From Plantactinospora soyae (GTDB lineage: Bacteria; Actinomycetota; Actinomycetes; Mycobacteriales; Micromonosporaceae): 64,000 bases of DNA. Positions 44,494 to 59,090 of the stretch are shown here, in pieces. Numbering within the stretch: the stretch's first letter is position 1; every line of letters begins with the position of its first letter. Location of the stretch: the NCBI RefSeq assembly GCF_014874095.1, contig NZ_JADBEB010000001.1:7750001-7814000 (forward strand). Reading direction: 5' to 3'. The notes beneath the pieces were generated by a model. That model saw nothing but the letters and a program-made list of their open reading frames with translations, did not search any database and was not told the DNA's origin. The translations under genes were made by a program, and so were the position numbers.

Positions 44494-46023
44494 ATGCAGC
44501 CAGTGGGTCCGTACCAGTTCATCGAGGCGATCAGCCTGTGTCAGGTGGGCAGTGTCTGGTCAGCCATCGACGGGCAGGGAAACTCGTACACGGTGGCCGT
44601 GCTCGACGCCACCGTAGCGGGCGATCAGCGCTGGCGGGACGCTTTCACCGGCACGGCACACGGGTTGGCACAGCCGGGAGCGGGCGGGCCCCGCTACGCG
44701 CACGCCGACTTCGCGGCCACCGCCCCCTGGGTGGCGTACGCCAGCAGCGACGGTCCGGGGGCGGAACGGCTGTTCGCGGCGCTCGGGATGGAGTGCCGAC
44801 CCACCCAGTCGGAGCTTGGCGGAATCGAGTCGGCCACCGTCAAGACCCCGGTGGTGGGTGCCACGCCCGGAGCGGACGACGACGAACTCGCGACGCCGAC
44901 GACGCGGCTGACGCCGGGTCTGACGCCGCCCGGCCCGTGGCAGGCCGGGCCACCGCAGCCGGTCACCGGTGAACCGGTCGTCGGGGAGCCGACGTCAGCA
45001 CCCCCGCACCAGGTGTCTGTGCCGCCACACCAGGTGTCCGTGCCGCCGCACCAGAGTTCCGGACCGCCCTACCAGGTTTCCGTACCGCCGGACCAGACGT
45101 CGGCGCCGCCGCACCAGGTCTCCGTACCGCCGCACCAGAGTTCCGGGCCGCCCTACCAGGTGTCGGTGCCGCCGCACCAGATCTCCGTACCGCCGGACTC
45201 GATCTCCGGGCCGCCGCAGCCGCTGCCGGAGATGCCCCGGCCGGGCGTGACCAGTGGGATCCCGGACGACCAGTCGTCGTACGACCCGCTCTACTCACCG
45301 GTCCGGCACATCGTGCCCTCCGAGCCAGCGCCGTCGCGACGTCGACTGTGGATCGGGATCGCCGCGCTCGTCGTACTCGTGCTCGGCGTCGGCGGAACAA
45401 TCTTCGCGCTGACCCAGTCGGGCGGGAACGATCCGAGCCCACCGGTGGCGAGCGCATCGGCGACCAGCCAGCCTCCGGCGCCGCTGCCGACCGCGTCGGC
45501 CCTCAATCCGGGACTGGAGCCGCCGAGGCAGGGCACCTGGCCGGCGCAGTGGCCCAAGTTCGGGGCCGGGGACGGTGTCCGGACGCTGACCGATCTGGAC
45601 GGTCTGGGCTTCACCGTCAAGGTGCCACGGGACTGGCAGTGCATCCCGGGCGGCAAGGCGGACGGCTTCGCCAAGCACTACTGCGGAGTCTCGCCGGGAG
45701 AGAGCCCGGAGATCGGTGGCGAGGTGGTCGTCCGGAACTGCCCGACCCCCTGCGGCCAGGACCAGCAGACCTCGATGCGGCGCGCCGAGGAGGCCTGGGG
45801 CCTGCAGTGGGTGGGCACCGGACGGTACGCCGCCTACGCCGAGCGCAGCTCGCTCAACATCGACGGCAAGGAACGGTACGTCCTGATCATCGTCGCGTAC
45901 TGGCGTAGCGGCAGCGAGGGAGTCGTCGACCGGCAGGTCGTGTTCCGGATGACGGCGCCGCCCGACGGGGCGAACCAGTTGCGGCGGATCGCCAACTACA
46001 TCCGCGACACGGTCGTCTTCTGA
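44494..46023 (+). CDS. membrane-anchored protein with kinase-N-lobe-like start, heptapeptide repeats and extracellular domain
   Basis: The 509-residue protein has four parts. Residues 1-50 (MQPVGPYQFIEAISLCQVGS, then WSAIDGQGNSYTVAVLD) look like the start of a Ser/Thr kinase N-lobe, but no catalytic HRD or DFG motifs follow. Residues 170-239 are ten tandem heptapeptides of the type PPHQVSV. A membrane segment (LWIGIAALVVLVLGVGGTIFALT) is near 286-308. The remaining about 200 residues, with an internal Cys-rich stretch (CIPGG, YCGV, NCPTPCG), would be outside. The layout is that of a sensor kinase that lost its kinase. It overlaps the convergent flippase gene by 28 bases. No function can be given. 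Confidence 0.8.
   Translation: MQPVGPYQFIEAISLCQVGSVWSAIDGQGNSYTVAVLDATVAGDQRWRDAFTGTAHGLAQPGAGGPRYAHADFAATAPWVAYASSDGPGAERLFAALGMECRPTQSELGGIESATVKTPVVGATPGADDDELATPTTRLTPGLTPPGPWQAGPPQPVTGEPVVGEPTSAPPHQVSVPPHQVSVPPHQSSGPPYQVSVPPDQTSAPPHQVSVPPHQSSGPPYQVSVPPHQISVPPDSISGPPQPLPEMPRPGVTSGIPDDQSSYDPLYSPVRHIVPSEPAPSRRRLWIGIAALVVLVLGVGGTIFALTQSGGNDPSPPVASASATSQPPAPLPTASALNPGLEPPRQGTWPAQWPKFGAGDGVRTLTDLDGLGFTVKVPRDWQCIPGGKADGFAKHYCGVSPGESPEIGGEVVVRNCPTPCGQDQQTSMRRAEEAWGLQWVGTGRYAAYAERSSLNIDGKERYVLIIVAYWRSGSEGVVDRQVVFRMTAPPDGANQLRRIANYIRDTVVF
45001..45210 (+). repeat. ten tandem 21-bp repeats coding for PPxxxSx heptapeptides
   Basis: Ten in-frame 21-base units, consensus CCGCCGCACCAGGTNTCCGT plus G/A, run without a break. 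Units 2-4 and 6-8 encode the same order (HQVSV, HQSSG, YQVSV after PP), so a four-unit block of 84 bases has been duplicated. The tract lies between the kinase-like start and the membrane segment. Confidence 0.9.
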
Positions 46024-48731
46024 GTCGAGCCCCTTCCCGCCAGCCGCTGTTGCAGCGCACCCGCCGTACCGTTGCGCCAGCCGGCACCGGCCCATGACCG
46101 CCCGCCCCGATCCTGCCCGGTCGAGGCGGGCGGTGCGTCGCCGGCCGGCAGGCCGAGCAGGGCGATCACCATCAGCGGAAGCCAGGTCGCGTGTCCGGCC
46201 AGCGTGGTCGGCACGTGCGACGCCTCCAGCCACGAGACGTACAGGAAGGCGACCAGGAAGAGTGCCGCGGCCGGGAAGCCGGCCCCCGCCAGCGCGACCG
46301 ACCTTCGCCAGGTGAGCAGGACGAGCAGCGCGACCAGCACTGTGGTGAGCAGCCCACCGACGACGAGAAACTGGACCAGAACGTTGTGCCCGTGGGTGAA
46401 CTCACCACCCAGTTGCACCGTCAGGTCCGGTTCACGCTGGAAGTACCGGGGACCGTGGCCCAGCAGCGGATGCTCGGCCCACCGGTCCAGCAGGGTCCGC
46501 CAGATCCGGCCACGCCGGGTGAACGCCTCGGGGTCCGTCGTGACCAGCGGCACCAGCACGACCGCCGCGACCCCGCTCGCCATCACGCCCGACAGCAGCC
46601 AGGTCCGGGTCGGGAAGAGCCGGACCAGCAGGTACGTGCCCAGCACGGCGGCGACCGCCAACTGACTGCTGCGTGACCCGGTCCAGAACAGCGCGAAGAG
46701 CATGACGGCCAGCGCGCCCCAGCGCAGCGGCGGACGCGCCACGCAGAACACGAACGGGATGCTCAGGGCCAGTGCGATTCCGAGCACGTTGGAATGCAGG
46801 AAGGGGCCGGCGAGAAGGCCACCGAGCAACGCGCTCTTGTCTCCGGCCGCCGCCCCGGAGATGAGGCCCAGGTCGGGGCGGACCAGCGCCAGCAGGATCG
46901 ACCCGGTCGCGGTGACGGCGCCGAGAACGCCGATCACCCCCAGGACCTCGCGCCGGACCGGCTGCAACCAGATGGCGACCGCGGCGAGCGGAAGTGCCAG
47001 CGACACCAGTCCGGGTCGCTGGTGGTTGAGGAGCCCGGACGCCTCGATCGCGAGGAAGGGGGCGAGGACGACGGCCAGCGACCACAGCCGCCCCGGTCGG
47101 CGCCGGTAGCCGCCGTGCGCCGCGAGGACCGCCGCGACCAGGATGAACGCCAGGCTGAGTGCGTCGCCGACCAGGTCGCTCGCCGGTGGGACCAGATCCT
47201 CGCGCGAGTTGAACTCCGGGCGTCCCGTATCGAGGAGCTGGATCAGCAGCGGCACCATCAACCGGAGCCAGGCGAGCACGAACAACAGGCCCACCCCGAA
47301 GGTCCCGACGTCGATCCGGCGTACCAGGGTGCCGAGCGCCCGCCGAGGTGGGGCTTCGTCCCCGCCGGACCCGGCCGGGTCCGAAGGCCCGGGCTCCGTC
47401 GTGGCCCGCTTCCGGAAGCGGCCGACGAACCCGATCGCCACCTCGCCGAGGGAGCGCAGGTCCTCCCGGTACGGCACCGTCAGTTCCCGCAGGGAAGGCA
47501 ATTCCGGCACTCTCCTCACCATCGCGCCGGCGGCCACGACCGACACTCCGTAACCGACCAGGCTGGCGATCGCGGCCCCGACCGCGCCCATCGGGGCGAG
47601 CAGGAACAGGAACACGATGCCGAGAACGGAACCGGCGACCAGCGCACCGGAGGACCAGGCCGCCCTGCCGTTCGCCAACAGAACCGCGCTGAAGATCACC
47701 ATGCTGGTGTAGAGGGTCGTCGCCGCGCAGAGGATGACCGTGGGCAGGACGGCCGGGGCGAACGCGGCACCGAAGACCCACGGCACGGCGATGCCCGCGA
47801 TCGCCGCCAGGACTCCGCTCGCGACGATCGACCCCAGCACGGCGAGCCGGGCGACCGTACTGGCCCGACGCCGGTCGCCACTGCTCGGCCGGCCCATCAG
47901 TACCGTACGGGCCGCCGTCGCGATCACCATCGGAATCTCCGCGACACTCACCGCCACCGCGTAGAAGCCGAGTTCCCGCGCCCCGATCACCGGCAACCCG
48001 ATGATCTGGTCGAGCCGGGCGGTGGAGATCGCCGCCAGCACACCGGGCAGACAGGTCAGCGAGTACGCCAGCAGTGAGCGGGTGGGTATGCCCGGATCCG
48101 GTGGCTCGGGTGGGTCCCCGGTCTCCTCCCCGGCCGACTCGACCCGCTCGGTCGAGAAGTGCAGCCGGACCAGTCCGAGAACGAGTCCGCCGCTCACCGA
48201 GGCGACGAAGAGCAGACCGGCCCAGTACGCGCTCAGGTCCAGCGTCAGGCAGGCGAAGACGACCAGCGCCGTCCGGAGCAGCGCGGGTACGACCTTCACC
48301 AGGTTGACGCCGCGAATGTCGGAGGCACCGGTCAACGCGCCGATGAGCAGGTTGGCGAGGATGTGCAGCGGCGCGAGCAGGGACAGCAGGAGGAACTGGC
48401 CGTAGTGCCCGTCGTCGCCACCGGGAAAGACGAAGAGCCCGAGCACGGCGAGCAGCCCGATCCCGAGCAGTCCGAGGGGTACCGAGGCGATCAGGCTCAC
48501 CTTGGCGGCGGCCCTGGTCGACAGCCGGCCGGTGCGCAGGTGGTAGCTGAGCGCGTCCTGTAACCCGTACGTGCCGATCCAGCCGCAGACGACGATCGGC
48601 AGGGTGAGCGCGGCATAGAGGCCACGACCGGTGGGTCCCAGTTCCCGGGAGAGCAGCGGGCCGACGAGGAGCCCGCTGATCGGGATCAGCAGGTTCGCGA
48701 AGGAGGCGGAGACCAGTTTCCTCGTCGACAT
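45996..48731 (-). CDS. flippase (Wzx/MATE-like) fused to O-antigen ligase/polymerase (Wzy-like) domain
   Basis: The 911-residue protein joins two membrane modules. The N-terminal about 430 residues start KLVSASFANLLIPISGLLVG with the repeated multi-helix pattern of polysaccharide flippases (ELGFYAVAVSVAEIPMVIATA; ILCAATTLYTSMVIF). After a polar linker (about 440-480), the C-terminal half has the O-antigen-ligase pattern: SNVLGIALALSIPFVF, ALFWTGSRSSQLAVAAVLGT, DRWAEHPLLGHGPRYFQR and FTHGHNVLVQFLVVGGLL. One chain would thus flip lipid-linked units and polymerise or ligate them. The ATG at 48731 overlaps the upstream stop (TGATG). The 3' end overlaps the convergent gene by 28 bases. Confidence 0.88.
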   Translation of the reverse strand: MSTRKLVSASFANLLIPISGLLVGPLLSRELGPTGRGLYAALTLPIVVCGWIGTYGLQDALSYHLRTGRLSTRAAAKVSLIASVPLGLLGIGLLAVLGLFVFPGGDDGHYGQFLLLSLLAPLHILANLLIGALTGASDIRGVNLVKVVPALLRTALVVFACLTLDLSAYWAGLLFVASVSGGLVLGLVRLHFSTERVESAGEETGDPPEPPDPGIPTRSLLAYSLTCLPGVLAAISTARLDQIIGLPVIGARELGFYAVAVSVAEIPMVIATAARTVLMGRPSSGDRRRASTVARLAVLGSIVASGVLAAIAGIAVPWVFGAAFAPAVLPTVILCAATTLYTSMVIFSAVLLANGRAAWSSGALVAGSVLGIVFLFLLAPMGAVGAAIASLVGYGVSVVAAGAMVRRVPELPSLRELTVPYREDLRSLGEVAIGFVGRFRKRATTEPGPSDPAGSGGDEAPPRRALGTLVRRIDVGTFGVGLLFVLAWLRLMVPLLIQLLDTGRPEFNSREDLVPPASDLVGDALSLAFILVAAVLAAHGGYRRRPGRLWSLAVVLAPFLAIEASGLLNHQRPGLVSLALPLAAVAIWLQPVRREVLGVIGVLGAVTATGSILLALVRPDLGLISGAAAGDKSALLGGLLAGPFLHSNVLGIALALSIPFVFCVARPPLRWGALAVMLFALFWTGSRSSQLAVAAVLGTYLLVRLFPTRTWLLSGVMASGVAAVVLVPLVTTDPEAFTRRGRIWRTLLDRWAEHPLLGHGPRYFQREPDLTVQLGGEFTHGHNVLVQFLVVGGLLTTVLVALLVLLTWRRSVALAGAGFPAAALFLVAFLYVSWLEASHVPTTLAGHATWLPLMVIALLGLPAGDAPPASTGQDRGGRSWAGAGWRNGTAGALQQRLAGRGSTQKTTVSRM

Positions 48732-49933
48732 CACTGTCCCCCGCGTGATGCCGTACCGCTGACGTCGAGATAGCCGTGTACGGCGAGCGCGCCGATCAGA
48801 CGCTCGGCGAACCGGTCCTCGGAGAACTGGTCACCGATCAGCACAGAGCCGGCGGCGGCCATCGTGTCCAGTTCGGCCGCCGACGCCCGCAGGATCTCCG
48901 CCGCCAGTGCCTCCGGGGTGTCGGCCAACCGGACGGCCGCCGTCTCCGGAACACCCTCGGCACCGACCGGGGTGGTGAAGACCGGGACGGAGTGCGCCAG
49001 CAGCGTCAGGGTCTTCAGTTTGACGCCGGCACCGCTCCAGACCGGAACCACCGCGGCCCGGGCCTCCGCGAGCACCGGCCGGAGATCCTCCAGGTAACCG
49101 CGCACGTCGAGACCGTCGACCGGGGCGAGACTCGCCTGTACCCGGTCGGTGAGGCCCGATCCGACCAGGGTCAGCCGGAAGCCGGCCCGGCGCAGCGCCG
49201 GCCAACCCCGGTCGAGGAAGTGCCGAAGCCCGGACAGGTTGGAGCGGTACGCGAAGCTGCTGAGCCAGACCAGGTGGCGCTCCTGCGGTCGCGGAACGTG
49301 CCCGACCGGCACCGGTACGCAGCTCGGCAGCGTGAAGTCCGCCGTCCGGCCGTGGTGCTCGGCGAGCCGGGCCGACTCCTGTGCGCTGGTCACCGAGACC
49401 GTCGCGCACCGCGACAGCGCCCGGGACTCGAACCGGGTCGAGATCCCGGCCAGGTACCGCGCCCGGAGCTGGTGTGCGAGATCCTCCGCCTCCGCGATGT
49501 CCCCCCGGGTGCTGCCGGCGAGCACGTTGGCCTTGTCCCAGTGCCAGCGCAGCCGGGTGCCCCGGAAGTACACCGCCGCCGCCTCGCCGATGGCGATCCC
49601 CGCACCGTCGCGGGACCGCAGGTCGTCGTGCAGCGGCTGGCTGTAGCGGCTCCGTACCCACGGTGGCAGTCCGTCGGCCATCGCCTCCGGGTAGCGACCG
49701 AGCGGCCCCAGCCGGTCCAGCCGGTACGGCGTCGCCGGATAGTCCCGGACCTCCACCTCGGGCAGCATCGCCCGCAACCGGGCCACCTGGTCGTCGGTGG
49801 TGTCGGGTCGGCGTACCACCGCCAGGGTGAACGGCCGGATCCGCGAGATCGCCCGGAGCATCATGAGTACCCGGACCGGATCGCCCCGGTCCGGGGGCAG
49901 CGGAAAGAACGTCGAGACGACTGTCAGCCCCAT
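48731..49933 (-). CDS. GT4-type glycosyltransferase
   Basis: The 400-residue protein has a GT-B fold layout. The N-terminal half starts MGLTVVSTFFPLPPDRGDPV and contains the acceptor region; the C-terminal half has LVWLSSFAYRSNLSGLRHFL, FRLTLVGSGLTDR, and the sugar-nucleotide site VPVWSGAGVKLKTLTLLAHS followed by PVFTTPVGAEGV. This resembles the GT4 enzymes of exopolysaccharide loci in actinobacteria. It would add a sugar to the lipid-linked repeat unit on the cytoplasmic face. It starts 4 bases after the upstream glycosyltransferase stop, and its own stop touches the flippase gene. Confidence 0.88.
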   Translation of the reverse strand: MGLTVVSTFFPLPPDRGDPVRVLMMLRAISRIRPFTLAVVRRPDTTDDQVARLRAMLPEVEVRDYPATPYRLDRLGPLGRYPEAMADGLPPWVRSRYSQPLHDDLRSRDGAGIAIGEAAAVYFRGTRLRWHWDKANVLAGSTRGDIAEAEDLAHQLRARYLAGISTRFESRALSRCATVSVTSAQESARLAEHHGRTADFTLPSCVPVPVGHVPRPQERHLVWLSSFAYRSNLSGLRHFLDRGWPALRRAGFRLTLVGSGLTDRVQASLAPVDGLDVRGYLEDLRPVLAEARAAVVPVWSGAGVKLKTLTLLAHSVPVFTTPVGAEGVPETAAVRLADTPEALAAEILRASAAELDTMAAAGSVLIGDQFSEDRFAERLIGALAVHGYLDVSGTASRGGQ

Positions 49934-49937
49934 CGGT

Positions 49938-51146
49938 CTAGCGCCTCGCCTCGGTGGCGCTGGCGTCGGCCGCCCGCCGGCGATCCCCGGCCGGGTCGGC
50001 GAGTCGGTGCCAGGTGTCGAGCAGCCGCTCCGCCTGCCGCTCGGGGCGGAACTCCGTACGCAGGCGGGTGGCGAGCGTACCCGCGCGGCGCCGCGCCTCC
50101 GCCCGGTCCCGCACCACCCGCGCCACCGCGTCGGCGAGCGCGGCCGGATCGTCGGGCGCGACCAGCCAGCCACCGTCGTCGTCGACGAGTTCGGGGATGC
50201 CGGAGACGGCGGTGGTCACCACCGGAACCTGCCGGCTGGCCGCCTCCATCAGGAAGACCGGAATGCCGTCGAGATCCCCGTCGGCGCCGCGCGTACAGGG
50301 CAGCACCGCGACGTCCGCGCCGGCCAGTGCCTCGGTCGCCACCGCGTGCGGCACCGCGCCGTGGAACGTCACGGCGGCGGAGACACCGTTCTCCTCGGCC
50401 CGGCGTTCCAGGCTGGACCGCAGCGGCCCGTCACCGTAGACGTCGTACTGGACGTCGAGGCCGGCGGCCACCAGCCGGGCCACCGCGTCGACGCCGGTGC
50501 CGACGCCCTTCTTCTCGACCAGGCGGGCGACGGTGACCAGCCGTACCGTGCCGTCCGGAGCACGCGGCGCCGGGTCGGGCAGTTCGCCGTCGTACGCGGC
50601 CCGGACGATGCTGTGCGGGATCGTCGCCATCGCCACGCCTCGCGCCTCGAGCTGGCGGACGGTCGCGGCCGAGATGACGAAGAGGTGCCGGAGCAGCCCG
50701 AGTCGCCGGGCCAGCCCGACCGGGTTCCGGTCCAGCAGGAAGTCGGCGGCGTGTGCGATGGCGGTCGCGGGCCTGCCGACCTCCTTCGCGACGAGTGCCG
50801 CCACCGAGGTCGGCAGGTTGACGAAGTGCGCGTGGACGACGTCCGGCGCGAAGGACCCGACCTGCTCGGCGAGCGCGATCGCGTGGCTGCCGGCCAGCAC
50901 CGCCCGGCGCAGGTCGGTGGCGCCGAGCGTACGTACCTGGGCGAACAGCCGGACGGGATGACGGAACACCGTACGGACGACCCGGGCGAGTTCGGCGCGC
51001 CGGCCGCCGGGGCGGGCGACGAAGACCTCGACGGTGGCGCCGGCGGACCGGACCGCGCGGATCTCCGCGGAGATGAACGTCTCGCTGTAGCTCGGCGGGC
51101 GGAGCAGGATGTACGCGACCCGTAGACCAGGCCGACCCTCCGTCAT
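49938..51146 (-). CDS. GT4-type glycosyltransferase
   Basis: The protein, 402 residues, shows clear GT-B features: VAYILLRPPSYSETFISAEI at the start, DVVHAHFVNLPTSVAALVAK, ATAIAHAADFL, and the donor-site half with TVRLVTVARLVEKKGVGTGV, YGDGPLRSSLE, VTFHGAVPHAVATEAL and IPVFLMEAASRQVPVVTT (EX7E-like acidic pair region). It resembles colanic-acid-type transferases (WcaL group). The ATG at 51146 lies 5 bases after the preceding stop. It is one of four consecutive glycosyltransferases, so the polymer's repeat unit is likely at least a tetra- or pentasaccharide. Confidence 0.92.
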   Translation of the reverse strand: MTEGRPGLRVAYILLRPPSYSETFISAEIRAVRSAGATVEVFVARPGGRRAELARVVRTVFRHPVRLFAQVRTLGATDLRRAVLAGSHAIALAEQVGSFAPDVVHAHFVNLPTSVAALVAKEVGRPATAIAHAADFLLDRNPVGLARRLGLLRHLFVISAATVRQLEARGVAMATIPHSIVRAAYDGELPDPAPRAPDGTVRLVTVARLVEKKGVGTGVDAVARLVAAGLDVQYDVYGDGPLRSSLERRAEENGVSAAVTFHGAVPHAVATEALAGADVAVLPCTRGADGDLDGIPVFLMEAASRQVPVVTTAVSGIPELVDDDGGWLVAPDDPAALADAVARVVRDRAEARRRAGTLATRLRTEFRPERQAERLLDTWHRLADPAGDRRRAADASATEARR

Positions 51147-51151
51147 CGGGC

Positions 51152-52390
51152 TCACTTCCCGCCCGCGTTCGGTCGCGCCTGCCGGACCGCCTGGAAGAAC
51201 CCGGCGTGGAAGCTCCGGCACTCCTCGTCGGTACGGATCCCCGGCGTCGCCGCCGCGCCCGCGGCCAGCCCGGCCCGCAACTGCGTCGAGTCCGCCAGCC
51301 TCAGCAACGCCTGGCCGAGCGCCTCGGGATCGTTCGGGGGTACGAGGAGGCCGTTGACGCCGGACCGGATCCACTCCCCCGGCCCGCCGCCCTCGGTGGC
51401 GACGATCGGCAGTGCCCGGGCCAGTCCCTGGATGACGGTCTGTCCCAGCGGTTCCGGTCTGGTCGACGCGTGTACCAGCACATCGATCGAGTCGAGGAAG
51501 CCCGGTACGTCGTCGACGTGACCGAGCAGATCCACCTGGTCCACGATGCCCAGTTCGGCGACGAGGCGACGGATCTCGGTCTCGTAGGCCGTCTCGGCGA
51601 ACAGCGGTGCTCCGGCGATCCGGGCCCGTACGTCGGTGCCCCGGAAGGCCAGTGCGAACGCGCGGAGGAAGACGTGCTGACCCTTCCACCGCTGTAGCCG
51701 CCCGACCATGCCGATCCGCCGTACCGCCGGGGCGGGACGGGGAACGGTGACCCGCCGATCGATGCCGACCGGGCTCTGGATCACCATCCTGGGCAGTCCG
51801 GGCCGGAGCCACTGCTCGGCCGAGGCCAGCGTCGTACGCGAGTTGGCGATCACGCCGTCGGCCCGGCCCAACGCGATCCTGGTGAACGCCCCGAAGCCGA
51901 ACCGGCCCAGGCTCTCGGCCGTGACGAGGTCGCGCAGGTGCACGACCAACGGTTTGGTCCCGCCCCGGTCGGCGAACGCGGAGCAGATCGCCGCGGCGGC
52001 CGTGTTGGCGTGCACGAGATCGGCGTCCCGGAACAGCCGGCTGCGTCCCAGCACACCGGCGCCGGCCTGTAGGGCACGCAGGTAACGCGCCGCGAGCAGG
52101 AGGCTTCCGCCCCGGGTGCCGCCGGTGGGCAGCGCCGGCAGGTTCCGCTCCAGTACCACGCCGTGCGCGGTCAACGCGTCGAAGGCGGTGCCGTTACCGG
52201 GCGTGCAGAGCCGGGCCAGCCAGTGCCGCTGCTGCTGGCTGAGCAGCCGGGCGAGGGCCAACTCGGCGCCGCCGCGCTGCGCGGTGTGGCTGACGTGCAG
52301 CACCGTCATCGCCGACGGTCCGGCCGGGTCGCCGTCGGCCGGGCCGAACAGTTGGTCCGGCACCGGGCTGTCGCCGTCAGCGAGACTCAT
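51152..52390 (-). CDS. GT4-type glycosyltransferase
   Basis: This 412-residue transferase has TVLHVSHTAQRGGAELALAR (the GG motif of GT4), ADLVHANTAAAAICSAFADR, a donor half with RRIGMVGRLQRWKGQHVFLR, IVDQVDLLGHVDDVPGFLDS and STRPEPLGQTVIQGLARALP with the conserved Glu of the EX7E region. No membrane segments. The ATG at 52390 lies inside the 3' end of the preceding glycosyltransferase gene (14-base overlap), so the two are translationally linked. Its sugar specificity cannot be read from the sequence. Confidence 0.93.
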   Translation of the reverse strand: MSLADGDSPVPDQLFGPADGDPAGPSAMTVLHVSHTAQRGGAELALARLLSQQQRHWLARLCTPGNGTAFDALTAHGVVLERNLPALPTGGTRGGSLLLAARYLRALQAGAGVLGRSRLFRDADLVHANTAAAAICSAFADRGGTKPLVVHLRDLVTAESLGRFGFGAFTRIALGRADGVIANSRTTLASAEQWLRPGLPRMVIQSPVGIDRRVTVPRPAPAVRRIGMVGRLQRWKGQHVFLRAFALAFRGTDVRARIAGAPLFAETAYETEIRRLVAELGIVDQVDLLGHVDDVPGFLDSIDVLVHASTRPEPLGQTVIQGLARALPIVATEGGGPGEWIRSGVNGLLVPPNDPEALGQALLRLADSTQLRAGLAAGAAATPGIRTDEECRSFHAGFFQAVRQARPNAGGK

Positions 52391-53576
52391 GGTCGATCCA
52401 CGCTGACATCCTCGCCGCGAACTCCTGGCCGGAGAAAGCGGTGGCATGGTTCCGGATCCGCTCGGGCATCAGCTCGGGCAGCCGCCGGACGAGCGGGGCG
52501 AAGTCCGCCGGATCCAACGAGTCGACCAGGAAGCCGGTCTCCCCGTCGGTCACCGTCTCCAACAGGCCGCCCCGGCGCAGTCCCAGCACCGGGGTACCGC
52601 ACGCCTGGGCCTCGACCGGGATGATGCCGAAGTCCTCGTGCACCGGAAACAGCAACGCCCGCGCCCCCCAGTAGAGCTGCCGCAACCTCTCCTTGCCGGG
52701 CATGACCTCGAACGTGACGGGTACGCCGACCCGGTCCGCCAGCCGCCGCAGGTTCGTCTCCTCCGGTCCGGAGCCGGCGAGCACGAGCGGCAGCCCGGCC
52801 GCTTCCGCGATCCCGATGACGAGGTCGAAGTTCTTGTACGGGATCCATCGGCCCACCCCGAGCAGATAGTCCCGGGACTGGCTCCGGTCGACCGCTGGCG
52901 CGGCGGCGAAGTAGTCCGTGTCGACCGGCGGATTGATCACCGTCGCGTCGCGTCGCCAGTAGCGCCGGATCCGGTTCTGCACCTCGCGCGAGTTCGCCGC
53001 GTAACTGTGCACATGCCGGCTGAGCCGTACGTCCGCGGCCCGCAAGACCCGTCGGGGTGGGGCCAGCAGCGGACTCGCGCCGCGGCCGTCGAACGTCGGG
53101 CTCCAGAGATAGCGCGCCGGGGCGTGTACGTAGCTGAGGTACCGGGTCTGCTCCGGTGAGCCCAGCCGGACCGTGTGCGCGAACGCGTGACTGGAGGAGA
53201 TGACGACGTCGTAGCGTTCCCGGGTGAGCGTCCGCCAGACGAGCGGCATCAGCGGCAGCGCCAGCGCCTTGCTGCGGGTCAGTGGGGTCCGGGCCAGCCA
53301 GGACTCGCGGAGGCCGGGCTCGGTGACGTCGCGGTCCTTCCACAGCACGAAGCGCTCGGCGTGCGGCACCAGGTCGGCGATGCGCCGGAACACCTCCTCC
53401 GACCCGCCCGTCGCGCCGAACCACTCGTGGACCAGTGCGACCGAACGACCGCGGAGCGGACGAAACTCGCAGGACCTGCCGAGGTCCGACTGCCGCCCGG
53501 TCGGGATCACGTCGCCGGGAGTTTCGCCGGAGACCGACCAATGCGGGCGCGGTTCGCGGGCCGGACGCCATGACAT
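52377..53576 (-). CDS. GT4-type glycosyltransferase
   Basis: The 399-residue enzyme is the first of the minus-strand glycosyltransferase run. Visible are SVALVHEWFGATGGSEEVFR, YDVVISSSHAFAHTVRLGSP, TRYLSYVHAPARYLWSPTFD, NSREVQNRIRRYWRRDATVI, LLGVGRWIPYKNFDLVIGIA and PVHEDFGIIPVEAQACGTPV, all GT4 hallmarks (mannosyltransferase-like). The ATG at 53576 has only a weak ribosome binding site and the first 45 residues are variable, so a later start is possible. It is divergent from the DUF1800 gene 139 bases away, and that gap should contain the locus promoters. Confidence 0.9.
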   Translation of the reverse strand: MSWRPAREPRPHWSVSGETPGDVIPTGRQSDLGRSCEFRPLRGRSVALVHEWFGATGGSEEVFRRIADLVPHAERFVLWKDRDVTEPGLRESWLARTPLTRSKALALPLMPLVWRTLTRERYDVVISSSHAFAHTVRLGSPEQTRYLSYVHAPARYLWSPTFDGRGASPLLAPPRRVLRAADVRLSRHVHSYAANSREVQNRIRRYWRRDATVINPPVDTDYFAAAPAVDRSQSRDYLLGVGRWIPYKNFDLVIGIAEAAGLPLVLAGSGPEETNLRRLADRVGVPVTFEVMPGKERLRQLYWGARALLFPVHEDFGIIPVEAQACGTPVLGLRRGGLLETVTDGETGFLVDSLDPADFAPLVRRLPELMPERIRNHATAFSGQEFAARMSAWIDHESR

Positions 53577-53715
53577 GCCAACTTGGACTCTCCCGCAGGT
53601 ACCGAACCAGCCAGTTCCAGGCCGGGATGATACAGCAGCACCAGGACCCCGACCATCAGCGGCGTCGGTTCGGGCCCGAGTGCCGATCGACGTGCTCGCC
53701 ACCTATGGTTGCAGG

Positions 53716-54984
53716 ATGACCGACGACGTCGCGTTGCTGCTGCGTCGGGCCGGCTTCGGTCCGACCGCCGCGGAACTGGCCGCGGCGCGGCAGGCCGGTT
53801 ACGAGGCGACCGTGTCGACCCTCGTCGCCCCGTTCGGGCCCGACATCGGGGCGAGCAGCGCGCCGATGCCGGACCTCGGGCTGGACCCGTACGCCGAGAA
53901 CCCGAACCCGACCAGCCGGCAACGCGCCGAGGCCGACCGGATCCGGAAGACGCAGACGGATCTGATCACCCGGTGGTGGCTGGAGCGGATGGTGGTGGCC
54001 AACCACCAGGCCGTCGAGAAGCTGCTGTTCTTCTGGCACGGGCACTGGGCAACCTCGGTGACGAAGGTCAAGAGCCCGCAGCTCATGCTGGCGCAGCACC
54101 GCAGCCTCCGGGAGTCACGCGACATCGCGGACACCGCACGGCGGATGATCGTCGACCCCGCCCTGGTCTACTGGCTGGACGGGCACCTCAACACCAAGCG
54201 GGCGCCGAACGAGAACCTCGGCCGTGAGCTGCTCGAACTGTTCCTGCTGGGGCACGGACAGTACACCGAACGGGACGTCAAGGAGGTGGGTCGGGCGCTC
54301 ACCGGCTGGCGGATCAACCTGCGCGCCGCGACCTCGGTCCTCGACCCCCGGGAGCACGACAACGGACGGAAGACGATCCTCGGCTCGACCGAGAAGTTCA
54401 CCGCCACCAGCGTGGTGAACCTGCTGTTGGGCCGGATCGAGTGCGTACGGTTCATCGCCTCCAGGTTGTGGTTCCGCTACGCCTCGTCGACAACGCCCGT
54501 TCCGGATCGGACCAGTGCCCGGATGGCCGGCGCGTTTCCGGCCCCGATGTCGATGCTCCGCGCCCTCTACACGGACGAGGCGTTCGCCACCACCCGGGAC
54601 ACGATGGTGAAGCAACCCATCGAGTGGCTGGTCGGCGCCATGCGGCAACTGGAGCTGCGTCCGACGAGGATCCCCGCCGAGACCCTGACCCAGCTCATCG
54701 ACGGACTCGGTGGACTCGGACAACGACCGTTCGCACCGCCCAGCGTCGGCGGCTGGCCGGCCGGGGCCACCTGGTTGACCTCGGCCGGTGCGCAGGTGCG
54801 GCTGAGCCTGGCCGGCAAGCTCGCCAGCCAGCTCACGCCGGGTCGGCTGACTCCGGAGGACGTGGCGTACATTCTCTGCATCGACAAGTGGACCGACAGG
54901 ACCTACGCCGTGCTGCGCGACGTACGAAACGCACGTCTGCTGCTGACGCTCGGACTCGTCAGCCCCGAATACCTGGTGACCTGA
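53716..54984 (+). CDS. DUF1800 family protein
   Basis: The 422-residue protein has the DUF1800 markers: LLLRRAGFGPTAAELAAARQ, WWLERMVVANHQAVEKLLFF with WHGHWATS, APNENLGRELLELFLLGHGQ with YTERDVKEVGRALTGWRI and PFAPPSVGGWPAG. DUF1800 proteins nearly always occur with a DUF1501 partner, which follows after one base here. Their function is unknown; roles in export or modification of extracellular polymers have been suggested by context. No signal peptide is seen, unlike its Tat-exported partner. It lies within an exopolysaccharide locus. Confidence 0.93.
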   Translation: MTDDVALLLRRAGFGPTAAELAAARQAGYEATVSTLVAPFGPDIGASSAPMPDLGLDPYAENPNPTSRQRAEADRIRKTQTDLITRWWLERMVVANHQAVEKLLFFWHGHWATSVTKVKSPQLMLAQHRSLRESRDIADTARRMIVDPALVYWLDGHLNTKRAPNENLGRELLELFLLGHGQYTERDVKEVGRALTGWRINLRAATSVLDPREHDNGRKTILGSTEKFTATSVVNLLLGRIECVRFIASRLWFRYASSTTPVPDRTSARMAGAFPAPMSMLRALYTDEAFATTRDTMVKQPIEWLVGAMRQLELRPTRIPAETLTQLIDGLGGLGQRPFAPPSVGGWPAGATWLTSAGAQVRLSLAGKLASQLTPGRLTPEDVAYILCIDKWTDRTYAVLRDVRNARLLLTLGLVSPEYLVT

Positions 54985-54985
54985 G

Positions 54986-56245
54986 ATGGACGCGCTCACC
55001 CGACGTCGGTTTCTCGTCGCCTCCGGGGTGCTGAGCGGCGGCGCGGTGGCGGCCGGTGCCGGCGCGATCGGCCTGGCCCGGCTGTTGGGCACCTCGTCGA
55101 AGGCGGCTCCCCCGGACCCGACCCGGCAGACCAGCAAGGTGGTGCTGGTCACCCTCTACGGCGGCAACGACGGGCTGAACACCGTCATCCCGTACGCGGA
55201 CCGGGCCTACCACTCGGCCCGGCCGGAGTTGGCGTACGCCTCCCGCGAGGTGCTGCGGCTGGACGACAAGCTCGGGCTCAACCCCAGGCTGCGTGGCCTG
55301 AAGGGACTCTGGGACGCCAAACGGCTCGGCATCGTGCTCGGGGTGGGGTACCCGAAACCGGACCGGAGCCACTTCCGGTCGATGGACATCTGGCAGACCG
55401 CGTCGCCGGGCAGCCCCGCGCCGACAGGTTGGGTGGGACGGTGGCTCGACGGCGTGAACGCACCCGTCGAGGCGGCCGTGAGCTTCGAGCCGGTGCTTCC
55501 GCCCCTGCTGGTGGGCAGGTCCCGGATCGGCGCCTGCGTCAGCTACCGAGGCCTCACCCTGCCCGACTGGATCAGTCCCGACCTGGTCGCGGCCCTGGGC
55601 CGCAGTCAGCCGAACGAGCCGGAGATGCAGGCCCGCGCCGCGGCCTCGTTCGCGGACCTGCTCACCATGGGCGACGTGGTCCGGGCGGCCGGGCAGCCGA
55701 CCCAAACGCCGGATGCGGGCGACGAACCCGCCGTGCCGGCCACGAGCACCGGTGGGGAGAACGCCCTCACCGCCCAGCTCGCGCTCGTGGCCCGCTGCGT
55801 CGAGGTCGGTGTGCCGACCCAGGTCTACTCGGTGAGCCTGGGCGGATTCGACACCCACGCCGAGGAGCGGGCCGGACACGAGGTGTTGCTGAAGCAGCTC
55901 GACGAGGCCCTGACGAGCTTCGTGGCCAGGATGGCCGAGACCGATGCCGGACGGCAGGTGGTGGTGGTCGTCTACAGCGAGTTCGGCCGGCGGGTCCGGG
56001 CGAACGCCTCCGACGGCACCGACCACGGGACTGCCGGGCCCGTCTTCGTCCTGGGGCCCCGGGTGGTCGGCGGGTTCTACGGCGAGCAGCCCAGCCTGAC
56101 CGATCTGGACGACGGCGACCTCAAGGCCACCGTGGACTTCCGGGACGTCTTCGGTACGGTCCTCGGCTCCGTGCTGGGCGCGGACCCGGCCCGCTACCTG
56201 GAGGGCTACCAGGGAAAACTGCTGCCCTTCGTACCCTCCGACTGA
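54986..56245 (+). CDS. DUF1501 family protein with Tat signal
   Basis: The 419-residue partner of the DUF1800 protein has a twin-arginine signal: LTRRRFLVASGVLSGGAVAA at about residues 4-23. The DUF1501 body shows LVTLYGGNDGLNTVIPYADR, GVGYPKPDRSHFRSMDIWQT, SVSLGGFDTHAEERAGHEVL, VVVYSEFGRRVRANASDGTD and HGTAGPVFVLG. Asp, His and Thr residues in DTHAE and DGTDHG are placed like those of alkaline-phosphatase-fold sulfatases, to which the family is distantly related. Export folded by Tat suggests a cofactor or metal. A hairpin follows the stop. Confidence 0.93.
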   Translation: MDALTRRRFLVASGVLSGGAVAAGAGAIGLARLLGTSSKAAPPDPTRQTSKVVLVTLYGGNDGLNTVIPYADRAYHSARPELAYASREVLRLDDKLGLNPRLRGLKGLWDAKRLGIVLGVGYPKPDRSHFRSMDIWQTASPGSPAPTGWVGRWLDGVNAPVEAAVSFEPVLPPLLVGRSRIGACVSYRGLTLPDWISPDLVAALGRSQPNEPEMQARAAASFADLLTMGDVVRAAGQPTQTPDAGDEPAVPATSTGGENALTAQLALVARCVEVGVPTQVYSVSLGGFDTHAEERAGHEVLLKQLDEALTSFVARMAETDAGRQVVVVVYSEFGRRVRANASDGTDHGTAGPVFVLGPRVVGGFYGEQPSLTDLDDGDLKATVDFRDVFGTVLGSVLGADPARYLEGYQGKLLPFVPSD

Positions 56246-56295: not shown

Positions 56296-57858
56296 TCATC
56301 GGCCACCGCCCCGGAACACCTCGGCGACCGTCCGGAGCAGTACCTTCGTGTCCAGCCAGAGCGACCAGTTCTCGATGTAGTAGTTGTCGAACCGGGCCCG
56401 GTCGGAGATCGGGGTGTCGCCACGTAGTCCGCTCACCTGGGCCAGGCCGGTGAGCCCCACCGGGACCCGGTGCCGCATCGCGTAGTCCGGGTGCTCGGCG
56501 GAGAACTTCTCTACGAAGTACGGGCGCTCCGGCCGGGGGCCGACCACCGTCATGTCGCCCCGGAGGATGTTCCAGAGCTGCGGCAGCTCGTCCAGCGACG
56601 TACGGCGCATGAACCGGCCGATCGGCCCGACCCGTAGGTCGCCCGCTATCGACCATCTCGTCTGCGACTCGTGGTCGTCCCGGGGTCGCATCGTACGGAA
56701 CTTGATGACGTCGAACGGCTCGCCGTACCTGCCGATGCGCTGCTGCCGGAAGAAGATGCCCCGGCCCCCTTCGCAGAGGGTCAGCAGCGCGCAGATCGCG
56801 ATGACCGGGCTGAGCAGCACCAACGCGATCGACGCCAGCACGATGTCGGACGCCCGTTTGGCCATCCACCGCGGGCCGGACAGGGTGGTGTGGCGGATCT
56901 GCACGACGGGGATCGCACCGATGTGGTCGGGCAGTCCGCCGGGAGAGCGGGATCCCCACAGCCTCGGCACGGTCCACAGGTCGCAGCGGGCGTACGCCGG
57001 GTGGGCCAGGATCTCCATCAACCGGGGTTCCAGGCAGTGCGGGTCGGCGACGATGAGGACGTCACACTCGACCATCGCGACCCGTTGTTCGAGGTTGTCG
57101 AGGGTACCGATCAGCGGCGGGCGCCCCGGAGCCTGCTCGTCGTCGACGTCGACGCAGCCGACGAACCGGAGGCCGTACTGGGGATACCGGCGCAGTAGCC
57201 GGGCCAGTTCGGCGGCGATCGGACCGCTGCCGATGATGATGGCGTTGTGCTCCACCCAGCGTCGCCGTCGGGCCAGCAGGACCATGCTCCGGGTGATCGC
57301 CCGGCCCAGGATGACCAGGCCGGCGGAGAGGGCGACCCCCCGCATGAAGCCGGCGACGTACTCCACCGATCCGTGCCGCATCGCGGCGATGATCGCCACG
57401 ATGGCCGCGGTGGCGAGCAGTCGGCCGCCGAGATTGGGCAGCTCGTCGAGGATGCTCATGTGCCGGCGTCCACGGTAGAGCCCGCCGGTCGCGAAGATGG
57501 CGACGGTGAGCCCGGCCGCGAACAGGGTGCCGCGCCAGTAGCGGTCGGAGAGCATCAGCGGTGCCAGCAGGGCGGCGAGGTCGACGGGAGCGGTCACCAT
57601 CCAGGCGCGGAGCCGGCGGGTACGCCCCGACGCGACCGACCCGGCATAGGGCAGTACGGCGGTGGTGTCGAGTCCGGATCGGGTCCGGACCGGGGCGGCC
57701 GGCTCGATCGGCGTACGTGGGCGGGGAATGCTCCGCGCCTCGTCAGCCTCGTCCGCCGTCCCGACCTCCGTCCCGGAGCCCGGTGCCAGTCGGCCGGCCG
57801 GATCGCTGTCGGACAGGTCCGCCGCCGGACCATGGTGGACCGCCCCCCAGCTCGACAT
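56296..57858 (-). CDS. polyprenyl-phosphate sugar-1-phosphate transferase (WcaJ/CpsE-type)
   Basis: The 520-residue enzyme starts the lipid-linked repeat unit by moving a sugar-1-phosphate to undecaprenyl phosphate. The N-terminal part has membrane segments and a Rossmann-like CoA-binding domain (AIIIGSGPIAAELARLLRRY). The catalytic C-terminus has KRASDIVLASIALVLLSPVI, FFRQQRIGRYGEPFDVIKFR with TMRPRDDHESQ, RFMRRTSLDELPQLWNILRG with DMTVVGPRPERPYFVE and RHRVPVGLTGLAQVSGLRGD, all family hallmarks. The ATG at 57858 has GGGAGG eight bases upstream; ATG 57864 is too close to it. The gene is co-directional with the LCP gene upstream. Confidence 0.94.
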   Translation of the reverse strand: MSSWGAVHHGPAADLSDSDPAGRLAPGSGTEVGTADEADEARSIPRPRTPIEPAAPVRTRSGLDTTAVLPYAGSVASGRTRRLRAWMVTAPVDLAALLAPLMLSDRYWRGTLFAAGLTVAIFATGGLYRGRRHMSILDELPNLGGRLLATAAIVAIIAAMRHGSVEYVAGFMRGVALSAGLVILGRAITRSMVLLARRRRWVEHNAIIIGSGPIAAELARLLRRYPQYGLRFVGCVDVDDEQAPGRPPLIGTLDNLEQRVAMVECDVLIVADPHCLEPRLMEILAHPAYARCDLWTVPRLWGSRSPGGLPDHIGAIPVVQIRHTTLSGPRWMAKRASDIVLASIALVLLSPVIAICALLTLCEGGRGIFFRQQRIGRYGEPFDVIKFRTMRPRDDHESQTRWSIAGDLRVGPIGRFMRRTSLDELPQLWNILRGDMTVVGPRPERPYFVEKFSAEHPDYAMRHRVPVGLTGLAQVSGLRGDTPISDRARFDNYYIENWSLWLDTKVLLRTVAEVFRGGGR

Positions 57859-58004
57859 CTCCATGACCTCCCCCGTGCCCTCGGCGCAGCACCTCACGCC
57901 GCGAGCGGTCGCCAGCAGAATACGGCCGGCTCAGCCGCTCCACCAGACGGTAACCTGGCGGCTCACGACGGTCGCTGGTGCGGGTGGCGGAACGCGGCTA
58001 CGGG

Positions 58005-59090
58005 CTACTTCGCGGCGCGAAGGATCTCCGGGACCGCGTCACGGCGGACGGCGTCGTAGAACTTCTTGGCCTCGTCGGTCCTGGCGAACACCACACTCTC
58101 GTCGCCGACCTGACCGGTTCCCTGGGTCGGGCTGGTGACGAAGGTCAGGTTGTTGCTACGCAGGTGGCGCAGCTCCATCGCCAGGTCGAGCATGGACATG
58201 GTCTTGTCCACCGAGACGGCATCGGCGGAGGCCTTGACGAACGAGTTCAGTCGCGCCGGGTTGGCGAGCGTGCCACCGGAGGCGGCCTTGTCCAGGATCG
58301 CCCTGATGACCTGCTGCTGGTGCCGGATCCGGGCGAAGTCCCCGTCCTTGAAGGCGAAGCGTTCCCGGGCGTAGTCCAGCGCCTTCGCACCGTCCATCGT
58401 CTGCCTGCCCTTGGTGAACTCCCGTCGTCCACCCGGCAGCAGGGAGTGGGTCGAGGTGAAGCTCTCCTCGACGGTGATCTGTACGCCGCCCAGCGCGTCC
58501 ACGATCTCCTTGAAGCCGGCGAAGTCGACGATCGCGACGTGGTCGATCCGGACCCCGGTGAACTTCTCGACCGTCTGCACCATCAGCGGAAGACCGCCCC
58601 AGGCGTACCCGGCGTTGATTTTGGCGTTCCGGCCGCCGTGCTTGCCGTCCTTGCTCTTGGGCACGTTCACCCAGGTGTCCCGGGGAATCGACACCAGTTG
58701 GGCGCTCGACCGGTCCTTGGGCAGGTGGGCGAGGATGATGGTGTCGCTGCGTGAACCGGAGGTGTTCGCCGGGTCACGGGTGTCGCTGCCGAGGACGAGG
58801 ATGTTCTTGGCATCCTGCGCCACCTTGACCGGGCGCGACTCCGCGGGCACCTCGTCGAACGCCTCCACGCGTTCGATGCCGCCCTCCACCGAACGCACGT
58901 AGAGGCCCGCCGCGACCGCGCCACCGGCGCCGAGCAGTGCCAACACCAACAGCGTGATCAGGACTATCCGCCTGGTACGGCGCCGCTTCGTGGGCGCGGG
59001 TGCCTCGGTCGGCTGCCCCTCGGGGGTCACCTCGGTGGCCTCGGTGGCCTCGGTGGAGTCGGACTCCGCGAGTTGGGGTTGGTGTGGCAT
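58005..59090 (-). CDS. LytR-CpsA-Psr (LCP) family protein
   Basis: This 361-residue protein has a cytoplasmic tail with an EATEAT repeat, one membrane anchor (RIVLITLLVLALLGAGGAVA, about 41-60) and an extracytoplasmic LCP domain. Family motifs are NILVLGSDTRDPANTSGSRS and SDTIILAHLP, LVSIPRDTWVNVP, KINAGYAWGGLPLMVQTVEK, VDALGGVQITVEE and ALDYARERFAFKDGDFARIR, including the Arg/Asp residues that bind pyrophosphate lipids. LCP enzymes attach polymers from lipid carriers to the cell wall or other acceptors. Here it is expected to anchor the exopolysaccharide. The ATG at 59090 has a weak ribosome binding site. Confidence 0.94.
   Translation of the reverse strand: MPHQPQLAESDSTEATEATEVTPEGQPTEAPAPTKRRRTRRIVLITLLVLALLGAGGAVAAGLYVRSVEGGIERVEAFDEVPAESRPVKVAQDAKNILVLGSDTRDPANTSGSRSDTIILAHLPKDRSSAQLVSIPRDTWVNVPKSKDGKHGGRNAKINAGYAWGGLPLMVQTVEKFTGVRIDHVAIVDFAGFKEIVDALGGVQITVEESFTSTHSLLPGGRREFTKGRQTMDGAKALDYARERFAFKDGDFARIRHQQQVIRAILDKAASGGTLANPARLNSFVKASADAVSVDKTMSMLDLAMELRHLRSNNLTFVTSPTQGTGQVGDESVVFARTDEAKKFYDAVRRDAVPEILRAAK

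Follow-up and report, generated by a model that had tools for sequence, protein, structure and literature searches.

DUF1800 and DUF1501 are common bacterial protein families without known function. Among the closest described systems are those of a 2016 study (PMC5122149), in which the two families were found to travel with bacterial chitin synthases and a functional link was proposed. Those chitin-synthase-linked pairs share three features with the pair described here: the adjacency of both families, a Tat motif on the DUF1501 protein, and co-transfer with a polysaccharide synthase. The system of that study comprises one processive GT2 chitin synthase and a sugar epimerase in Proteobacteria, whereas the pairs reported here accompany Wzx/Wzy clusters with WcaJ and LCP genes in Micromonosporaceae, form a dedicated subfamily, and carry tree evidence of following a polymer module. 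Our literature search, with most subscription journals outside its scope, found no report tying DUF1800/DUF1501 to Wzx/Wzy clusters; the other publications that it returned name the two families incidentally or as entries in lists of genes.

The pair lies in the 9.7-Mb genome of Plantactinospora soyae, within a stretch of 64,000 nucleotides that was analyzed as a whole (G000:C1:7750001-7814000, hereafter the window; Table 1). The initial annotation had placed it between the glycosyltransferases and the initiating sugar transferase; the coordinates proved exact, and the neighbors were confirmed as GT4, Wzx/Wzy-type, WcaJ and LCP genes. Since the cluster holds WcaJ, glycosyltransferases, Wzx, Wzy and LCP together, we classify it as Wzx/Wzy-dependent, and the glycosyltransferases identified in it are all GT4. 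The DUF1800 protein matches PF08811 over its full length (profile positions 2-418 of 419, E 3.7e-78, 264 bits vs. a curated cut-off of 26.1), and the DUF1501 protein matches PF07394 (E 2.2e-29, 103 bits vs. a curated cut-off of 27), with residues 207-412 as the best stretch. A single base separates the DUF1800 stop codon from the DUF1501 ATG, a spacing shared by 25 of the 39 loci of the A-type subfamily defined below. Relative to its neighbors, the pair points away from the first GT4 gene and toward WcaJ, and its strand is opposite to that of the GT4, WcaJ and LCP genes, so that it stands outside the glycosyltransferase and WcaJ operon in the window. A scan for promoter and terminator consensus sites was blank, with no sigma-70-type site in the intergenic region between GT4 and DUF1800; in a genome this rich in GC, such a result carries no information.

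Window positions 44494-46023 (+), where the polysaccharide cluster has its far end, encode a conserved protein that matches no Pfam family significantly. From a cytosolic N-terminus, which by eye resembles a degenerate kinase N-lobe, the protein continues through a proline-rich linker and a single transmembrane helix to a conserved outer domain at its C-terminus, and its relatives occur in several Micromonosporaceae polysaccharide clusters (e.g., L028:1184-2419 and L144:17302-18630).

Table 1. Features of the polysaccharide locus, in window positions.
Feature	Position	Strand	Remarks
Fused Wzx-like flippase (Polysacc_synt) and Wzy-like polymerase/ligase (Wzy_C)	45996-48731	-	module M1
GT4 glycosyltransferase	48731-49933	-	module M1
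GT4 glycosyltransferase	49938-51146	-	module M1
GT4 glycosyltransferase	51152-52390	-	module M1
GT4 glycosyltransferase	52377-53510	-	module M1; divergent neighbor of DUF1800
Divergent intergenic region, GT4 to DUF1800	53511-53715	.	about 145-205 bp, set by the choice of GT4 start
A-type DUF1800 protein, 422 aa	53716-54984	+	ATG at 53716; PF08811 profile; without signal peptide
A-type DUF1501 protein, 419 aa	54986-56245	+	PF07394 profile; Tat signal TRRRFLVASGV; predicted alkaline-phosphatase-superfamily fold
Tat signal and N-terminal hydrophobic region of DUF1501 (approximate)	54986-55105	+	low-confidence section of model
WcaJ-type initiating sugar phosphotransferase	56296-57864	-	tail to tail with DUF1501, 50 bp
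LCP-family glycopolymer transferase	58005-59090	-	

The same genome carries a second DUF1800/DUF1501 pair at 2.747 Mb (locus L005), with no polysaccharide genes around it. A protein search of 251 Micromonosporaceae genomes separated an A-type, scoring at least 548 bits and present in 39 genomes, from a B-type comprising the rest (at most 495 bits); the pair in the window is A-type and that at L005 is B-type. In the tree, the A-type DUF1501 proteins form one clade (SH-aLRT 100) adjoining the B-type of Micromonosporaceae. B-type pairs also occur in Mycobacterium, Amycolatopsis, Nocardia, aquatic Actinobacteria and others, and resemble the A-type in gene order, Tat motif and invariant residues, with about 60% identity between the DUF1501 proteins. 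Unlike the A-type, they fall outside the A clade, and the 54 B-type loci tested are without polysaccharide genes save for one LCP match. Plasmids of other phyla repeat the DUF1800-DUF1501 order; some of these pairs (Rhodobacter, Paracoccus, Azospirillum) have polysaccharide genes close by, and others lack them. The initial annotation had offered a testable role for two uncharacterized families. Given the mixed contexts of the B-type and plasmid-borne pairs, which rule out a general polysaccharide link for DUF1501 and DUF1800, that role can be claimed for the A-type subfamily and not for both families.

Several pairs depart from the usual gene structure. In Mycobacterium talmoniae (L078:8672-11191), DUF1800 and DUF1501 form a single 840-aa open reading frame with the Tat signal in mid-protein, which is either a natural fusion or a lost stop codon; a joint MAFFT alignment of this protein with both families, meant for complex prediction, was dropped, its DUF1800 half being at 13-19% identity. 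The A-type DUF1501 gene at L140:7198-8462, in an M2 cluster (see below), is broken into two overlapping frames by a frameshift or a sequencing error. On an Acidisarcina plasmid (L152:4032-7799), the protein encoded upstream of DUF1501 is a DUF1800-family member of about 1256 aa whose N-terminal part includes a hydrophobic stretch, in contrast to the short, unsignaled actinobacterial forms.

The A-type pair is linked to polysaccharide clusters, as supported by computation. Scoring a locus as linked when at least three polysaccharide genes lay within ~10 kb, we found linkage at 38 of 39 A-type loci vs. none of 23 B-type loci in Micromonosporaceae (Fisher p 4e-16), and at none of 31 B-type loci elsewhere in Actinobacteria. 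Thus, the expected co-occurrence with GT4, WcaJ and LCP genes held strongly for the A-type and not for the B-type. WcaJ is tail to tail with the pair (at most about 115 bp apart) at 26 of the 39 A-type loci and lies within 15 kb at six more, while some pairs are 9-14 kb from WcaJ or on contigs without it. At 14 loci, the gene directly before the pair, on its strand and no more than 75 bp away, encodes a glycosyltransferase, Wzz or Wzx. The sole A-type locus without polysaccharide genes nearby, L122, is near transporter genes, and the WcaJ relative of that genome is far off. By a count that ignores genome kinship, a WcaJ relative (E < 1e-120) is present in 38 of 39 genomes with an A-type pair vs. 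about 61 of 212 without one; the latter indicate that the pair is optional, and the WcaJ clusters L141-L144 are examples without it. Trypsin-like (Trypsin_2) proteins recur in A-type loci (L127:8431-9933, L124:729-2105 and L013:1359-2510), that of L127 being directly convergent with DUF1501.

A-type pairs accompany five modules that differ in flippases, polymerases and glycosyltransferases, labeled by clustering of the neighbor genes independently of the pair sequences: M1, the module in the window, with GT4s and a fused Wzx/Wzy; M2, with a MurJ-like flippase and a separate Wzy; M3, with a pyruvyl transferase; M4, with Wzz-like and Wzy-like genes; and M5, with its own Wzx and glycosyltransferase set. 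The same-strand arrangements behind module genes belong to M3-M5. Single-linkage cluster 4 of the neighbors, which mixes an orphan membrane protein with trypsin-like proteins, was left out as evidence. Trees from quick searches were compared for the 27 loci at which DUF1501, DUF1800, WcaJ and LCP are all present. The DUF1501 and DUF1800 trees require six and five module changes, respectively (shuffled mean 16), and eight and nine genus changes, whereas the WcaJ and LCP trees require ten and eight module changes and only four and five genus changes. Pairwise identities point the same way: same-genus, different-module DUF1501 proteins are 67.8% identical vs. 66.5% when both genus and module differ, and the corresponding values for WcaJ are 79.4% vs. 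71.0%. Moreover, AU tests rejected a single clade for the genus of the window in DUF1501 (p 0.00015) and DUF1800 (p 0.0004), a clade that the WcaJ tree already shows, and rejected M5 as a single clade for WcaJ (p 0.03). Loci L119, L124 and L132 deviate from the module pattern. Because the trees of the pair track module over genus and those of WcaJ and LCP show the opposite pattern, the pair seems to move with the part of the cluster that is specific to the polymer: computation supports co-inheritance of the A-type pair with an interchangeable, polymer-specific module. The proposal that the pair modifies or processes the polymer gains from both the linkage and the module-tracking trees; its chemical part, modification of the polymer, is one that we still infer.

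The two proteins were folded separately. The AlphaFold2 model of DUF1501 (pLDDT 81.9, 54-row alignment) predicts an alkaline-phosphatase-superfamily fold, to which the sulfatase/phosphatase-like acidic motifs noticed earlier would belong. It matches 490 PDB chains at Z of at least 8, including the bacterial NPP phosphodiesterase 7mw8_C (Z 17.3 over 247 residues, rmsd 3.3), as well as LtaS, choline sulfatase, phosphopentomutase and phosphoethanolamine transferases. NPP, phosphopentomutase, sulfatase and LtaS come out as roughly equal matches, so the fold names no substrate. No variation occurs at D62, S128, H129, D289, H291, E332, R335, D346 and H347 among the 95 DUF1501 proteins (39 A-type and 56 B-type). 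By their order along the chain, D62, S128, D289/H291, E332 and H347 would fit the metal and nucleophile positions of the superfamily, and the candidate nucleophile S128 directly precedes a helix (129-138) in the model. The invariance of these candidate active-site residues suggests selection for catalysis. The likeness to the superfamily thus covers the fold, at Z of about 15-17, and conserved Asp, Ser and Asp/His in the expected order, but DUF1501 has Glu-Phe in place of the usual Asp-His or Asp-Asn, an extra invariant His after the candidate Ser, and a fixed DUF1800 partner. Phe occupies position 333, where a short, non-significant profile match and the motif order suggest that the second-metal His/Asn has been replaced. 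Profile-profile comparison of DUF1501 with the sulfatase and NPP families of related genomes yielded no significant hit and no more than a short local alignment, which put YSEFG on ISDNG, and a profile search of PDB sequences with the family returned nothing meaningful and no sequence-level match to PDB chains.

The pair had been described as one cytosolic-looking and one Tat-exported protein, and both halves of this description hold: the DUF1800 protein in the window lacks an N-terminal hydrophobic stretch, as do most across the set, and its DUF1501 partner carries the motif TRRRFL. The strict Tat motif [STND]RRxF[LIVM] is found in 89 of the 95 DUF1501 proteins (A-type, 37 of 39; B-type, 52 of 56), and a hydrophobic stretch is present in 38 of 39 and 50 of 56, respectively. 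The DUF1800 model is all-helical and very confident (pLDDT 96.4). A PDB fold search with it gave no clear match (Foldseek E no better than 0.9; Z at most 3.5, over 49 residues), which does not in itself prove a new fold, and a profile search of PDB sequences with the family returned nothing meaningful. Its invariant or near-invariant polar residues are E101, H110, D155, N165, E166, N167, R170, E171 and E174; H108 is Gln in four A-type proteins.

We favor the reading that the A-type pair is a module-specific, extracytoplasmic unit for polymer tailoring or processing in Micromonosporaceae, with DUF1501 catalyzing and DUF1800 assisting, and give it a probability of roughly 0.58; catalysis, substrate, complex formation and co-export of the pair are what we infer within it. 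The polymer would be a WcaJ-primed, Wzx/Wzy-made, probably LCP-anchored surface polysaccharide, and the pair would be matched to the repeat unit or polymer from the local Wzx/Wzy module. Outside the membrane, the Tat-exported DUF1501 protein would act on the polymer or on its lipid-linked repeat unit, hydrolyzing or transferring a phospho- or sulfo-group. DUF1800, which is translated immediately ahead of DUF1501 and has no signal itself, would work with DUF1501 and, if both act together, may be exported as a passenger of the DUF1501 Tat signal.

Module co-inheritance is explained equally well by a partner of Wzx/Wzy or by a repeat-unit enzyme, and the pair could instead be a non-catalytic or regulatory assembly factor, serving for example Wzy chain length, export or carrier recycling, that is matched to its module and leaves polymer chemistry unaltered. 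Its position directly behind Wzz-like or Wzx-like genes in M4 and M5 fits such a factor, as does a DUF1800 protein without a clear known fold match; nevertheless, the invariant candidate active-site residues of DUF1501 favor catalysis, and the pair is kept while flippases and polymerases vary by module, so we hold this to be unlikely, if a serious competitor. The main sceptical reading, in which the A-type pair is a general envelope enzyme that settled at the recombination-prone WcaJ border and is carried with exchanged DNA, seems to us improbable. Passenger DNA between exchanged modules would likewise track the module tree, many A-type pairs occupy the one border, meeting WcaJ tail to tail, and polysaccharide genes are missing around the widespread B-type pairs, but passenger status sits poorly with retention in 38 of 39 loci over five modules (including pairs 9-14 kb from WcaJ or on WcaJ-less contigs), with the operon-like position behind module genes at 14 loci, and with the single, fully supported A-type clade in Micromonosporaceae. 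Action on a substrate other than the polymer (wall phosphate or nutrients, for instance), with co-regulation alongside the capsule, would suit the about equal fold matches of DUF1501 but leaves unexplained why the phylogeny of the pair tracks the polymer module, and we regard it as very improbable.

More broadly, we raise as a tentative and somewhat doubtful generalization that DUF1800-DUF1501 may be a widespread two-part enzyme, in which a subunit from the alkaline phosphatase superfamily, its metal site altered, is joined by a Tat-passenger partner of unrecognized fold, and whose clades would be dedicated to different polysaccharides (Wzx/Wzy-made here, chitin-like in Proteobacteria) and swapped with the biosynthetic module of the polymer.

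For the A-type, our results suggest a type of polymer-tailoring enzyme whose partner has no clear fold counterpart among solved structures. A subfamily locked to polysaccharide clusters and exchanged with the polymer-specific module provides a concrete, testable substrate class for these proteins, and strains of the same genus with different modules and matching pairs offer ready-made comparisons.
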